Assembly (NCBI RefSeq): GCF_009826975.1
Contig: NZ_WUMO01000008.1
Location: 124,001-188,000 of the forward strand
Length of the DNA: 64,000 nt
Source: Flavobacterium sp. HBTb2-11-1
Lineage (GTDB): Bacteria > Bacteroidota > Bacteroidia > Flavobacteriales > Flavobacteriaceae
Reading direction: 5' to 3'
In this document: in pieces, positions 22,234 through 64,000 of the stretch
Position numbering within the stretch: position 1 is the stretch's first letter
Layout of the letters: every line of letters begins with the position of its first letter
Notes under the pieces: model-generated
Seen by the model: only the letters and a program-made list of their open reading frames with translations
Databases searched by the model: none
What the model was told of the DNA's origin: nothing
Made by a program: the position numbers and the translations under genes

Positions 22234-22270
22234 CAAATATAAAAAAACAACTTATAAAACAATCGGTTGT
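22234..22270 (-). promoter_or_regulatory. Unit A promoter with operator over the -33 box
   Basis: On the minus strand the operator ACAACCGATTGT (22270-22259) contains TTG, followed after 18 bases by TATATTTG (22241-22234), a full match to the Bacteroidota TAnnTTTG box. The flanking AAAC...GTTT extends the dyad to 16 bp. Superposition on -33 suggests control of polymerase access. Confidence 0.75.
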
Positions 22271-22569: not shown

Positions 22570-22581
22570 ACAATCGGTTGT
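22570..22581. promoter_or_regulatory. Distal operator of unit A
   Basis: ACAATCGGTTGT, identical to the proximal copy, centre-to-centre 311 bp upstream of it. No TAnnTTTG box lies at the matching distance, so it is probably an auxiliary site. It is 50 bases beyond the GH10 terminator. Confidence 0.7.
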
Positions 22582-35646: not shown

Positions 35647-35684
35647 CAAAAATATAGAAAAAATTGAATTACACAACCGATTGT
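35647..35684 (-). promoter_or_regulatory. Unit B promoter with operator over the -33 box
   Basis: On the minus strand the operator ACAATCGGTTGT (35684-35673) provides the -33 TTG; 19 bases later TATTTTTG (35654-35647) matches TAnnTTTG. The asymmetric centre is in the opposite orientation to units A, C and D, consistent with a symmetric dimer binding either way. Confidence 0.75.
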
Positions 35685-35972: not shown

Positions 35973-35984
35973 ACAACCGATTGT
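35973..35984. promoter_or_regulatory. Distal operator of unit B
   Basis: ACAACCGATTGT, identical to the proximal copy and 300 bp upstream of it. No -7 box lies at the matching distance. It is about 50 bases beyond the unit C terminator. Confidence 0.7.
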
Positions 35985-58199: not shown

Positions 58200-61100
58200 T
58201 TAAAATGTTAAATTAAGTCCAAATAAATAATTTCTGGTTGCAGGAGTATTTGTACCTATAACAGAAAATCTTCTCTGATAAGAGGCAACAGCCTGATTTT
58301 CGTCACCAAATGAATTCGTTTCAGGATCCATTCCAGATTTATCATGATATGGAGAAAATAGAACAAACGGATTCTGCACTGTGAAATAAAGTCTTAATTT
58401 GTCAATTCCTACATTTTTTGTAAAATTTGGATCAAGAGTATATCCAAGAGTCATTGCTCTAATTTTTACATAAGAAGCATCAAAATACCCCATAGTCGAC
58501 ATATATTTAGGGTTATCCCCGCTTCTGATACCTCTCGGATTAGGAAACTCTCCATCTCTATTATCTGGAGTCCAGTAGTCAACATCTACGTTGCTTCTAC
58601 GTCCGTTTAATAAGTTCATATAGCTTGCACCTCCATATAATGTGCTTATTAAAACACCTCCGCTTTTAAATGCTCCTACTGCATTAAAATCAAATCCTTT
58701 GTAAGTTACATTGGTATTAAAACCTCCCTGAAAGTCTGGATCTGTTTCTATAATCTGGCGATCGCTTGCATTAATAGCACGGGTTGGCGAACCATCTGGA
58801 TTATATTCTCCTGTATATTTCACTTTAATAGATCCTACAACTGTTCCTTGCTGGTTAATTCCTGTTGGTCCTGGCTCAAGAATTGACATATATGGATCAC
58901 CTTCCTGCCAGATTCCAACCTTTTCATAATCATAGATTGAATTAATATTATATCCAACAAACCAATTATTTGCTTCATCACGGCTAGCACCTGATGCTAA
59001 AGCAACAAGTTTGTTTTCATTTTTATAGAAGTTAACTCCCACAGACCATGTCACACCTTTAGGATTATCAAGAATAACTCCGTTCAATGAGATTTCGTAA
59101 CCTTTGTTTTGTGTTTCTCCCACATTGGCCACATAACTGCTTACACCAGATGTTGCTGGAAGTCCCACACGCTGCAATAGATTTTTTGTATTGGTTTTAT
59201 AATATTCAACTGTACCAGATAAACGGTTATTAAAAAATCCGAAATCTAAACCATAGTTCCATGTAGTAGAAAACTCCCATCCCAAATTAGGATTAGGAAG
59301 CTCAGTAACATATACTCCAGTTGAATTATTGCTTCCAAAATTGTACGGTCTTGTGCTTAAAGCTCCTAGCGTTGCATAAGGAGATACTGCCTGATTTGAA
59401 GTTTCTCCATACCCCGCTCTTAATTTCAATAAATTAATGTATTTAATATCTCTCATGAATGACTCATTTGAAAGTGTCCAACCAGCAGATACAGCAGGAT
59501 AAGTTACCCATTTGTTGCCAGGAGATAATCTTGATGAACCGTCAGAACGAACTGTTCCAGATATAAAGTAACGGTTATCATAAGAATACATTAACCTAGC
59601 CATATAAGATGTCAATCCCCATTGCGTATAATCTTGATCTGCCGGATTAATCACTGCTTCTTCCTCACTTTGCCCTAAATTATAAAATTGGAAAGCGTCA
59701 GAAGTAATTCCGTTTCGAGTCACTCTCGAACTTTGTCCTGTGTATTGTTCATTGGAGTACAATCCGACAAAATTTATTGTATGTTTTTGTGCAAATGTTT
59801 TATCATAAGTCAATAAATTTTCCAACAGCCATTGTGTAGACCAACCATTTGTGATTGCCGCATTAGAAAGTGTTGTCGGGTTTACGTCAAAAACTCCCTG
59901 ACCTTCATAATATCCAGCATTTGATGTGCGTAAATTTAAACCTGTATTAAGTCTGTATTTTAATCCCTCAACACCTGGGATTTTAATTTCTGCAAAAATG
60001 TTATTGTAAGAACTGAAAGCTCTATTTAAATTCACATAAGCATCTCCCAAATTTTCAATAGACTTTCTAGTGTAAACCCACTGGTCATCTGCCGCCATGC
60101 TAACTGTTCTTTTCAAAGAACCATCTGCATTGTACGGATTAGCAAGCGGTGAAGTCTGCAAAATAGTTCCTGTTCCGATATTATCGCCATTTGTAATGCT
60201 GTAGTTGCTATTCGTATTGAATCCAATGCGAATAGATCTATTAATCTGCTGGTCTAAACCCGCTCTAAGGCTAAAACGCTCATAGCTTTGGCCAGGAAGA
60301 ACTGATTCTTCTTTATAATATCCTAAGCCTGCATTGTAAGCACCTGTTTCGCTTCCTCCTGAAACGCTAACATCATGGCTAATCATTTCGCCAGAACCGT
60401 ATAGTGAATCCTGCCAATCTGTATTTACATTTCTTTTCTCGTCAACGCCATCTGCATATAACCCTGAATAATCACGAAGAGCAGCAAATTTAGATGCGTC
60501 CATCATAGGATATTTTGAGAAAACCTGTTTAATCCCGCTAAAACCATTGTAGGTAAAAGTAGCTTTTTGATTTTTCTTTCCTTTTAAAGTAGTCACTAAG
60601 ATTACACCATTTGCTCCACGAGAACCATAAATAGCTGTAGCAGAAGCATCTTTCAGGATATCCACAGACTTGATATCTGCAGGATTAATATCTCCTATAG
60701 AACCTGCGAATGGAACTCCATCCAATACCACCAAAGGATCGTTACTTCCTGTCAACGATCTAGTCCCTCGAATCCTGATCTGCATTGCAGCACCTGGTTT
60801 AGAAGAAGTTTGCGTCATCTCAACACCTGGAAGCCTTCCTTGAAGCGCTTGAGTAATATTAGCTGCTGGTACCTCGTTCAATTCCTTGCCGCCAAGAGAA
60901 GCAACAGATCCTGTAACCGCTTCTTTAATTTGTGTACCGTATCCGATTACCACAACTTCCTTTAAGTTATTGGCATCTTCTTCAAGTGTTACATTAATAT
61001 TTTTCTGTCCGTTTACAGCAACTTCTTTGCTTTTTAATCCGATGAAACTAAAAATAAGTACTCCGTTTGCCGGCACATTTATAGAATAAGTACCATCAAA

Positions 61101-61289
61101 ACTAGTGCTCACACCGTTTTTGGCTCCTTTTAAATTAACATTAGCCCCTGGAATAGGACCGCTTGCATCAGTTACCGTTCCTGTAACTGTTGTCTGCGCT
61201 TTAGATTGAAATGAAAACGCAAACATCAGCATAAAAAAACATAAACATTTTAAATGTCTCTGTTTACTTGCAGTAAAGTGGTTAGTCAT
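58200..61289 (-). CDS. SusC-family TonB-dependent transporter (unit C)
   Basis: 1029 residues: signal region up to about 32, CarboxypepD-like domain (34-103), TonB box EVVVIGYG (111-118), plug (120-235) with VLDGVPFAGS and ATAIYGSRGANGVILVTT-type motifs, and a barrel ending in NYLFGLNLTF. First gene of the longest unit, it should import decorated xylan fragments processed by the downstream debranching enzymes. The predicted start of transcription lies about 90 bases upstream of the start codon. Confidence 0.95.
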   Translation of the reverse strand: MTNHFTASKQRHLKCLCFFMLMFAFSFQSKAQTTVTGTVTDASGPIPGANVNLKGAKNGVSTSFDGTYSINVPANGVLIFSFIGLKSKEVAVNGQKNINVTLEEDANNLKEVVVIGYGTQIKEAVTGSVASLGGKELNEVPAANITQALQGRLPGVEMTQTSSKPGAAMQIRIRGTRSLTGSNDPLVVLDGVPFAGSIGDINPADIKSVDILKDASATAIYGSRGANGVILVTTLKGKKNQKATFTYNGFSGIKQVFSKYPMMDASKFAALRDYSGLYADGVDEKRNVNTDWQDSLYGSGEMISHDVSVSGGSETGAYNAGLGYYKEESVLPGQSYERFSLRAGLDQQINRSIRIGFNTNSNYSITNGDNIGTGTILQTSPLANPYNADGSLKRTVSMAADDQWVYTRKSIENLGDAYVNLNRAFSSYNNIFAEIKIPGVEGLKYRLNTGLNLRTSNAGYYEGQGVFDVNPTTLSNAAITNGWSTQWLLENLLTYDKTFAQKHTINFVGLYSNEQYTGQSSRVTRNGITSDAFQFYNLGQSEEEAVINPADQDYTQWGLTSYMARLMYSYDNRYFISGTVRSDGSSRLSPGNKWVTYPAVSAGWTLSNESFMRDIKYINLLKLRAGYGETSNQAVSPYATLGALSTRPYNFGSNNSTGVYVTELPNPNLGWEFSTTWNYGLDFGFFNNRLSGTVEYYKTNTKNLLQRVGLPATSGVSSYVANVGETQNKGYEISLNGVILDNPKGVTWSVGVNFYKNENKLVALASGASRDEANNWFVGYNINSIYDYEKVGIWQEGDPYMSILEPGPTGINQQGTVVGSIKVKYTGEYNPDGSPTRAINASDRQIIETDPDFQGGFNTNVTYKGFDFNAVGAFKSGGVLISTLYGGASYMNLLNGRRSNVDVDYWTPDNRDGEFPNPRGIRSGDNPKYMSTMGYFDASYVKIRAMTLGYTLDPNFTKNVGIDKLRLYFTVQNPFVLFSPYHDKSGMDPETNSFGDENQAVASYQRRFSVIGTNTPATRNYLFGLNLTF

Positions 61290-61386: not shown

Positions 61387-61424
61387 CAAATATAGAAAAA
61401 TATCTATCAAACACAATCGGTTGT
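61387..61424 (-). promoter_or_regulatory. Unit C promoter with operator over the -33 box
   Basis: On the minus strand the operator ACAACCGATTGT (61424-61413), flanked to give a 16-bp dyad ACAC...GTGT, contains the -33 TTG; 19 bases later TATATTTG (61394-61387) matches TAnnTTTG. Confidence 0.75.
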
Positions 61425-61733
61425 GTAATTTTTTATTGAGAAGTACAAAAAAAATACAGCTTAAAAAAATAATTCCTTCATAATTAAGCTTAAAAAAATA
61501 AGAATATTATAAAACAAACTATAACGTTGTAGCTATGTTTAATAAAAATTATGCGTTTTTGGGATATTCTTAAAGAAAACATAAAAATGAAAAATTCTGG
61601 TTTTTGATTTGAAAAAATTAAAATCCTTTAGATTACAGGACTGTAAACAAACACAAAAAACCAGTAAAATCGTACATTAAACAGCAGTAACCTGATTTGC
61701 CAATCTTTAAAATTCTTAAAAATTGTCTTTAAA

Positions 61734-61745
61734 GCAATCGATTGT
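61734..61745. promoter_or_regulatory. Distal operator of unit C
   Basis: GCAATCGATTGT, a fully symmetric core CAATCGATTG with one outer base changed, 321 bp upstream of the proximal copy. No -7 box is at the matching distance. It lies 12 bases beyond the regulator terminator. Confidence 0.65.
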
Positions 61746-62000: not shown

Positions 62001-62711
62001 TTAAAAATTAAAATTGAATTTTGCATTCCAAAATATTTCATGTTTTGGCACATTCAAACTATAAAATTCAGCAGCCCTGTTTGAGACGCCTTCTTCTTTT
62101 TCAGCAAGACCTCGAACTAATCTTCTCTGCAAAATCTTTCTTCTAAAATTAGTCTTATTGATTTCAATGCCCAATATTATTTCATACAAATGAATCACTT
62201 GAAGCAAAGTAAACTTTTCGGGCAAAAGATTGAAGCCAACTGCACTGCAACAAATATTCTTTCGCAATTCTTTAATGCTGAAATCAATTACTCCCATATA
62301 TTTTTCCTCTAAATCAGCTATATGGTGTACATCAATCCAGATTACGTTAGATGGCAATTCGTCATCATCAACTTTTTTTTCTTTGTTCACCATTGCATAA
62401 TATCCGATTGAGATATTTTCTTGAAATGATGCTGATGAGTGATAACCAAATGCCCGTAATTGTTCCAAAAAGAAATCCTCTTCTGAAATATATTTTTTCA
62501 AAATCTTTTGTGCCGTTTTTAATATTGTCTCTCCCTCTTCCAAACTCGCACTAGGTAATCTCCAGTTGCCATTCGTTGCATCATTTTCATTTTTGACAAG
62601 CAAAACTTTTAAGCTCCTGTCTTCAAAACAGAATATTACACAGTCAATTTCTATCTTATTTTCTTGACTTAAATTAAAACCTACTCTCTCTTCTGATTCT
62701 TCTTTTTTCAT
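62001..62711 (-). CDS. Nudix-family transcription regulator (NrtR/AraR-like) with winged helix
   Basis: 236 residues: Nudix-fold domain (22-150) and a C-terminal winged helix (160-225, FTLLQVIHLYEIILG). The Nudix box is degenerate: the usual GG reads Ser54-Ala55 and the catalytic REvxEE reads QKILKKY (68-74), so hydrolase activity is unlikely and ligand sensing is expected. Proteins of this type regulate arabinose/pentose genes in Bacteroides (AraR) and NAD or pentose genes elsewhere. It lies 24 bases downstream of a GH43 gene, in a unit whose promoter carries the xylan operator, so it is a good candidate for binding that motif, though the motif also resembles LacI-type operators. Confidence 0.85.
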   Translation of the reverse strand: MKKEESEERVGFNLSQENKIEIDCVIFCFEDRSLKVLLVKNENDATNGNWRLPSASLEEGETILKTAQKILKKYISEEDFFLEQLRAFGYHSSASFQENISIGYYAMVNKEKKVDDDELPSNVIWIDVHHIADLEEKYMGVIDFSIKELRKNICCSAVGFNLLPEKFTLLQVIHLYEIILGIEINKTNFRRKILQRRLVRGLAEKEEGVSNRAAEFYSLNVPKHEIFWNAKFNFNF

Positions 62712-62735: not shown

Positions 62736-63770
62736 TTAATCAAATAATCTTCTTATTCCGTACGGATCAATCGTTACAATCGAACCGTCTTCCAGATACT
62801 CTATCTTGGTCACTTTCATGCTTCGCAAATGCGTCACGCCTTTTGAAAGGCTCGAATCGTGGTAGAACAGATACCATTCCCCTTCCACTTCGCAGATCGA
62901 ATGGTGCGACGTCCAGCCTATCACCGGATTCAGGATTCTTCCCTGATACGTAAACGGCCCGTACGGACTGTCTCCGATTGCATAGCAGATGAAATGCGTG
63001 TCTCCCGTCGAATACGAGAAATAGTATTTTCCGTTGCATTTGTGCACCCACGAAGCCTCAAAAAAACGGCGCGCATTATCCCCTGCCAGAAGCCCATTTC
63101 CGTTTTCGTCCAAAATCTGGATTTCTCTCGGCTCTTCAGCAAACTCGAGCATATCATCTCTTAACAAAGCCACAATCGGCCCCAAGGCTTTTTCGCCCGC
63201 AAGAGGCTCTTCATTGTTTTCATGATATTCATTATTGCGGTATTTCTGAAGCTGTCCGCCCCAGATTCCCCCAAAATAGATGTAATGTTTCCCATCTTCA
63301 TCTTCAAAGACCGCAGGATCGATGCTGTAGCTGCCTTTTATGGCGTCTTTTTCAGGAACAAAAGGTCCGACTGGCGAGTCTGAAACCGCTACGCCGATCT
63401 GGAAAATTCCGCTGGCGCGTTTGGCAGGGAAATACAGATAATACTTTCCGTTCTTATGTGCGGCATCGGGCGCCCACATCTGCTTTTCGGCCCAGGCAAC
63501 GTCATCCACATGCAATGCAACCCCATTGTCGACAGCTTCCGATGAAATGTCCTCCATCGAAAAGACATGGTAATCCTCCATTCCGAAATGGTCGCCGTTG
63601 TCATTAAATGGAATCCCCGCATCGATGTCGTGCGACGGATAAATGTAAATCTTTCCGTTGAATACATGCGCCGAAGGATCGGCGGTGTAGATATGGGAAA
63701 CTAAAGGCTTGGAAATTGCCAGATTGCTTATTTCTTCAAAATTAATGTGTTCAATGCTGTCTTCAGGCAT
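62736..63770 (-). CDS. GH43 glycosidase without a signal peptide
   Basis: 344 residues forming a single propeller with base Asp31 (IYTADPSAHV), modulator Asp151 (SYSIDPAVFEDEDG) and acid Glu238 (RFFEASWVHK). No signal peptide or lipobox is present, unlike the other GH43 proteins here, so it is predicted to be cytoplasmic and to hydrolyse imported xylo- or arabino-oligosaccharides. Its base composition is higher in G+C than its surroundings (28 of 60 in two sampled lines). It is the first gene of unit D and is followed by the Nudix regulator. The start Met could be later, but no later Met fits the propeller. Confidence 0.88.
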   Translation of the reverse strand: MPEDSIEHINFEEISNLAISKPLVSHIYTADPSAHVFNGKIYIYPSHDIDAGIPFNDNGDHFGMEDYHVFSMEDISSEAVDNGVALHVDDVAWAEKQMWAPDAAHKNGKYYLYFPAKRASGIFQIGVAVSDSPVGPFVPEKDAIKGSYSIDPAVFEDEDGKHYIYFGGIWGGQLQKYRNNEYHENNEEPLAGEKALGPIVALLRDDMLEFAEEPREIQILDENGNGLLAGDNARRFFEASWVHKCNGKYYFSYSTGDTHFICYAIGDSPYGPFTYQGRILNPVIGWTSHHSICEVEGEWYLFYHDSSLSKGVTHLRSMKVTKIEYLEDGSIVTIDPYGIRRLFD

Positions 63771-63922: not shown

Positions 63923-63961
63923 CAAAAATAATATTGTTTCCTGATAAAAACAATCGGTTGT
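63923..63961 (-). promoter_or_regulatory. Unit D promoter with operator over the -33 box
   Basis: On the minus strand the operator ACAACCGATTGT (63961-63950) contains the -33 TTG; 20 bases later TATTTTTG (63930-63923) matches TAnnTTTG. Any distal operator would lie about 300 bases beyond it, outside the window. Confidence 0.7.
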
Positions 63962-64000
63962 GTAAAATTATACAAAAAAACATACTATGCAAATTTAGTT

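Follow-up and report, generated by a model that had tools for sequence, protein, structure and literature searches.

The xylan cluster in this stretch of Flavobacterium DNA (the window, 64 kb in length) is almost certainly switched on and off by a LacI-type repressor that is encoded 200 bases past the window edge. From the distribution of its predicted operator we propose that the Nudix gene at 62001-62711 is a target of this repressor; it would encode an accessory regulator with a dismantled effector pocket; we give this reading as a whole a probability of about 0.65.

The LacI gene beyond the window edge

Among the xylan genes inside the 64-kb window no other regulator ORFs were seen, and the preliminary description took the Nudix protein to be the only regulator of the locus. 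This is a window-edge artefact. At window-equivalent 64200-65231 (L007:2200-3231), starting 200 bp past the window end and upstream of GH43, lies a gene with the domains of a LacI-family protein, namely a LacI HTH (PF00356, 1.3e-10) and a periplasmic-binding-protein-like domain (PF13377, 4.7e-31). An unlinked LacI protein had been offered earlier as the alternative; the LacI part of that proposal stands, as the operator tracks LacI, but the gene is adjacent rather than unlinked. A second LacI copy, 82% identical to the first, is found at a xylose locus on contig 3 with genes for GH67, GH10, MFS, GH43, GntR and xylulokinase as its neighbours, and no Nudix gene is present at that locus. The genes and sites of the GH43-Nudix region are as follows:

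62001..62711, minus strand: NrtR/AraR-family protein, in which the Nudix domain (about residues 1-150) is degenerate and is followed by a winged-helix DNA-binding domain (about 151-236); Pfam, PDB, 5bs6 fold match, tree
62736..63770, minus strand: cytoplasmic GH43, the leading gene of the GH43-Nudix pair; Pfam PF04616 (1.4e-28), ORFs
63950..63961: predicted LacI-type operator ACAATCGGTTGT, upstream of GH43-Nudix; conserved in relatives
63990..63997, minus strand: TAAATTTG, a candidate -7 box resembling the TAnnTTTG of Bacteroidetes and lying between the paired GH43 operators; read from the sequence
64026-64037 (window-equivalent, just outside the window): partner operator ACAACCGATTGC, 76 bp from the site at 63950-63961

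The Nudix gene follows GH43 after a gap of 24 nt, and the operator at 63950-63961 lies upstream of both, in agreement with the operon described previously. Inspection of GH43 by eye revealed no signal peptide. The gene shares 94% nucleotide identity with its copy on contig 3 (L021:16863-17897), whereas the adjoining LacI genes are only 75% identical in DNA, which suggests recent copying or gene conversion.

Operators and promoters

Six exact copies of the palindrome ACAAYCGRTTGT occur in the window (none expected from dinucleotide shuffles), and nine in the 5.26-Mb genome, compared with none for the reversed pattern. These nine, six in the window and three on contig 3, are confined to two xylan/xylose loci, and both of these contain a close copy of the same LacI. 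Sites of 12 bp with a central CG are typical of LacI-family proteins, and the earlier remark that the operator looks LacI-type is borne out by the way it tracks LacI across genomes. At the susC promoters the following were located:

58200..61289, minus strand: SusC4, adjoining the Nudix gene, with an operator pair in its upstream region; ORFs
61387..61394, minus strand: TATATTTG, candidate -7 box for the susC4 operon, without variation across the aligned SusC4 upstream regions
61413..61424: predicted LacI operator of the susC4 promoter, covering the -33 region some 19 bp upstream of the TATATTTG box
61734..61745: GCAATCGATTGT, the second of the susC4 operators, placed 321 bp upstream of the first
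22259..22270: same predicted LacI operator, SusC1 promoter
22570..22581: same predicted LacI operator, 311 bp upstream of the preceding site, between SusC1 and GH10
35673..35684: same predicted LacI operator, SusC3 promoter
35973..35984: same predicted LacI operator, 300 bp upstream of the site in the SusC3 promoter

The site at 61413-61424 is kept in all SusC4 upstream regions aligned, and its distance to the TATATTTG box is near-constant at every aligned locus, whether or not a Nudix gene is present; this placement would be consistent with repression at the -33 region. The operators come in pairs of near-fixed spacing, mostly 77-81 bp at MFS/GH43 promoters and about 300-335 bp at susC promoters (loci L104-L134), an arrangement which suggests DNA looping.

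Comparative genomics of the operator

Co-distribution was examined in 150 Flavobacterium genomes, counting LacI homologues at E values of at most 1e-80. Such homologues were found in 32 genomes and orthologues of the Nudix gene in six, all of them among the 32 (p=6e-5). Across the sample the operator co-occurs with the LacI-family gene: mean site numbers, which are correlated by descent between genomes, were 4.4 in LacI-positive genomes without a Nudix orthologue and 1.0 in LacI-negative genomes (p=4e-10). Addition of the Nudix gene to LacI made no significant difference (5.7 versus 4.4 sites, p=0.37). Gene order is unchanged at about 15 LacI-positive loci that lack the Nudix gene, and the MFS gene is again preceded by the same operator pair, in most cases with a spacing of 78 bp. 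In several genomes LacI genes are themselves preceded by operators, at distances of about 80-200 bp, and the motif recurs in the divergent promoter of a LacI gene from another family whose product is only 42% identical.

Because LacI-positive genomes that lack the Nudix gene keep the same operators at the same promoters, the operator would be that of LacI and the Nudix gene one of the LacI targets. That LacI owns ACAAYCGRTTGT we regard as very highly probable. The preliminary description had favoured a different arrangement, in which the Nudix protein binds ACAAYCGRTTGT and autoregulates the GH43-Nudix operon together with the polysaccharide utilization locus (PUL). Its gene does lie downstream of the operator and always within this regulon, but operators are equally frequent and identically placed in LacI-positive genomes without it, and the contig 3 locus has three operators and no Nudix gene. 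Furthermore, the putative operator of the nearest paralogue is a different, 23-bp semi-palindrome, and the 12-bp operator is shorter than the 21-bp sites of BtAraR (PMC4666351). Control of the locus by the Nudix protein through the palindrome is, on these grounds, scarcely credible.

A LacI gene has also been reported inside the xylan PUL of Gramella flava (PMC5306329), likewise in a xylan locus with xylA/xylB; in Flavobacterium, by comparison, comparative genomics assigns a defined operator and regulon to the predicted repressor.

The Nudix-winged-helix protein

The minus-strand ORF at 62001-62711 specifies a protein of 236 amino acids with Pfam matches to NrtR_WHD (4.6e-21), AraR_C (3.3e-7) and, weakly, NUDIX (1.4e-4). 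Its best solved relative is BtAraR of B. thetaiotaomicron (BT0354; PDB 5bs6, 5dd4, 5ddg and 5deq; PMC4666351), with an E value of 2e-26 for 5bs6. The same entry is the top fold match for the predicted structure, a model with a mean pLDDT of 61.6 and a poor winged helix that serves for the fold alone. An N-terminal Nudix fold followed by a C-terminal NrtR-type winged helix confirms, at the level of sequence and predicted fold, the assignment to the NrtR/AraR family. At the positions of the Nudix box (GX5EX7REUXEEXGU) the protein has A55, E61, K69, I70, K72 and K73; thus glycine is replaced by A55, the Arg-Glu pair by K69 and I70, and the two glutamates by K72/K73, and the box reads as dead and non-catalytic. 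Lysines 72 and 73 had been correctly placed at key positions before, and loss of the glycine and of Arg-Glu can now be added; Pfam, the PDB matches and the box alignment all uphold the earlier view of a non-catalytic NrtR/AraR-type protein.

BtAraR shares the two-domain fold, the family and the dead Nudix box with our protein, but the latter is linked to xylan rather than arabinose genes, and the Nudix halves are 23% identical. Its intercalating Arg180 corresponds to Thr187. Overall, the DNA contacts Lys179, Arg180, Asn181, Lys184, Lys204 and Arg205 correspond to K186, T187, N188, R191, N211 and R212, three of the six being identical.

Six Nudix-winged-helix proteins of this kind are encoded in the genome: one linked to araBAD, one to putative NAD/ADP-ribose genes, a tandem pair, one near GH3, and the 62001-62711 protein. 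The araBAD-linked paralogue (L011:9850-10539) adjoins GH51 and araB-araD-araA, keeps the AraR triad and is likely the true AraR of the genome. The second of the six (L010:10201-10893), whose neighbours were assigned by eye to NAD/ADP-ribose metabolism, is separate from the 62001-62711 protein, which has no linkage to NAD genes. The winged helix of the latter is 54% identical to that of its nearest paralogue, the Nudix half only 31%.

A scan of 84,980 species (one genome per species) returned 18 named Nudix loci, nearly all labelled Flavobacterium. In 13 of these the gene follows GH43 in a xylose operon of the order MFS-GH43-Nudix-(GntR)-XylB-XylA, where locus L116 has its contig end right after the Nudix gene and L115 has a further GH43 inserted behind it. 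The remaining five show the arrangement of the window, with the Nudix gene between LacI or GH43 and SusC4, two of them without GH43. In the tree the window type (6 rows, 100/100) falls inside a xylan-linked clade (20 rows, 100/100), to which the tandem pair of Flavobacterium paralogues is sister (100/99). No Nudix relics were found in the gap after GH43 of loci without the gene. A xylan/xylose locus from another family of the class (L184) combines GH10 and a LacI of 42% identity with an AraR-like Nudix-winged-helix gene directly before xylA. The pairing of LacI with Nudix genes seems to have more than one origin.

The effector pocket and selection

BtAraR binds L-arabinose by Arg34, Arg86 and His131 (PMC4666351). 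In our protein these are N41, S93 and Y138, and linkage to araBAD is likewise lacking; the araBAD-linked paralogue keeps the triad, and L-arabinose, one of the ligands expected earlier, is left without support. When the pocket is defined by Arg86, His131 and Gly47 (BtAraR numbering), the residues found are S93, Y138 and S54. Arg86 is kept in 52 of 52 other NrtR-family rows, most of which were drawn by similarity to one paralogue, compared with none of the 20 rows of the xylan-linked clade, and Gly47 is lost in all 20. His131 is kept in the same 52 rows and in 14/14 operon-type rows but lost in 6/6 of the window type. The operon-type rows conserve aspartate at positions 36 (13/14), 48 (14/14) and 92 (13/14), which the window type mostly lacks. 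Since D36, D48 and D92 are conserved, the operon-type pocket may be reshaped rather than empty and, with H131 also kept, "no ligand" may be the wrong description for these relatives.

These residues bear on whether the protein is an ordinary sugar-sensing NrtR-family regulator, a functional counterpart of XylR (BT0791), holding xylose or a derivative in a reshaped pocket. An NrtR-family xylose regulator of that name is predicted in Bacteroides (PMC3878776, PMC4666351), and the likeness, by family and gene context, lies in the linkage to xylB-xylA of most relatives of the window protein, the gene standing in a xylose operon at 13 of the 18 named loci. The operon-type proteins, as noted, conserve D48 and H131 throughout and D36 and D92 in all but one. 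All 20 proteins, by contrast, are without Arg86 and Gly47, and the window subclade is also without His131 and most of the aspartate set; by its description XylR differs from this clade, in which the pocket is lost and the gene belongs to a LacI regulon. We consider such a sensor unlikely here, though a serious contender.

Values of dN/dS ranged from 0.04 to 0.16 overall, 0.02 to 0.12 in the winged helix and 0.06 to 0.25 in the Nudix domain; the DNA-binding domain of the clade is under strong purifying selection. The window copy might instead be a decaying passenger that moved with GH43 into the PUL, as its divergent Nudix half and its absence from most LacI-positive genomes could indicate. That is very improbable given an intact reading frame in all compared loci and a dN/dS against the nearest relative of 0.09 for the whole protein and 0.02 for the winged helix.

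Candidate sites for the Nudix protein

No operator belonging to the Nudix protein itself was found at the xylan loci with promoter motifs and k-mers. One conserved palindrome separate from the LacI sites was noted:

61518..61533: palindrome ACTATAACGTTGTAGC, flanked by the two susC4 operators; no second exact copy in the genome

It is kept in all window-type loci, and its arms resemble those of the tandem paralogues' site. As a Nudix operator it is unproven, near-matches being present also in two genomes without the Nudix gene. The block ATAACCACAAACC upstream of the MFS gene was rejected as a Nudix-specific promoter element, being present in Nudix-minus loci too, and k-mers enriched in Nudix-plus loci were discarded because they reflect lineage.

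The tandem paralogues (C27:67965-69415) have nearly the same recognition helix and wing as the 62001-62711 protein, but keep Arg86, His131 and the GG, and they differ in their neighbours (lepA, and a divergent SusC or FGGY kinase) and in having a site of their own. Upstream of them is a conserved 23-bp semi-palindrome, CTTATRGTNANNTTGACYACAAG (L009, C27 69719-69741; L029-L052 among the Flavobacterium loci compared), which looks like their operator. It often has a second half-site and faces the divergent SusC or FGGY kinase. Sites of this type are single in the genome, at the paralogue itself, and at the xylan loci matches appeared at about background rate only.

Proposed regulation

We propose that the LacI-family sugar repressor (64200-65231) and its contig 3 copy would use ACAAYCGRTTGT as their operator, acting on paired sites that are separated by 76-81 bp at GH43/MFS promoters and by about 300-335 bp at susC promoters, and would be released by a xylan-derived sugar. 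Through the GH43 promoter the Nudix gene would be a target of LacI. Its product appears to be a derived NrtR-family winged-helix protein in which the DNA-binding half is maintained and the canonical effector pocket dismantled; in view of this combination, its activity probably depends mainly on how much protein is produced once LacI has left the operator, or on a non-canonical signal. It could then regulate xylan/xylose genes in an accessory, feed-forward or feedback role. The sequence data are best fitted by a DNA-binding protein under LacI control that is ligand-independent or has swapped its signal, perhaps an accessory regulator that is ligand-blind or ligand-switched. More doubtful is the stricter proposal that these one-component regulators have given up their sensor: the proteins of the clade would still bind DNA but detect no sugar in the pocket typical of the family, LacI would act on them through abundance alone, and they would possibly compete or pair with the sugar-sensing paralogues or act at ACTATAACGTTGTAGC.

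The wiring of this large glucuronoarabinoxylan locus would thus be corrected to a LacI regulon with a defined operator, which is testable in cultured Flavobacterium. A clade of NrtR-family regulators in which the DNA-binding domain persists while residues invariant in all the other proteins examined are gone would offer a clean case of how sensor-regulators lose or swap their signal.
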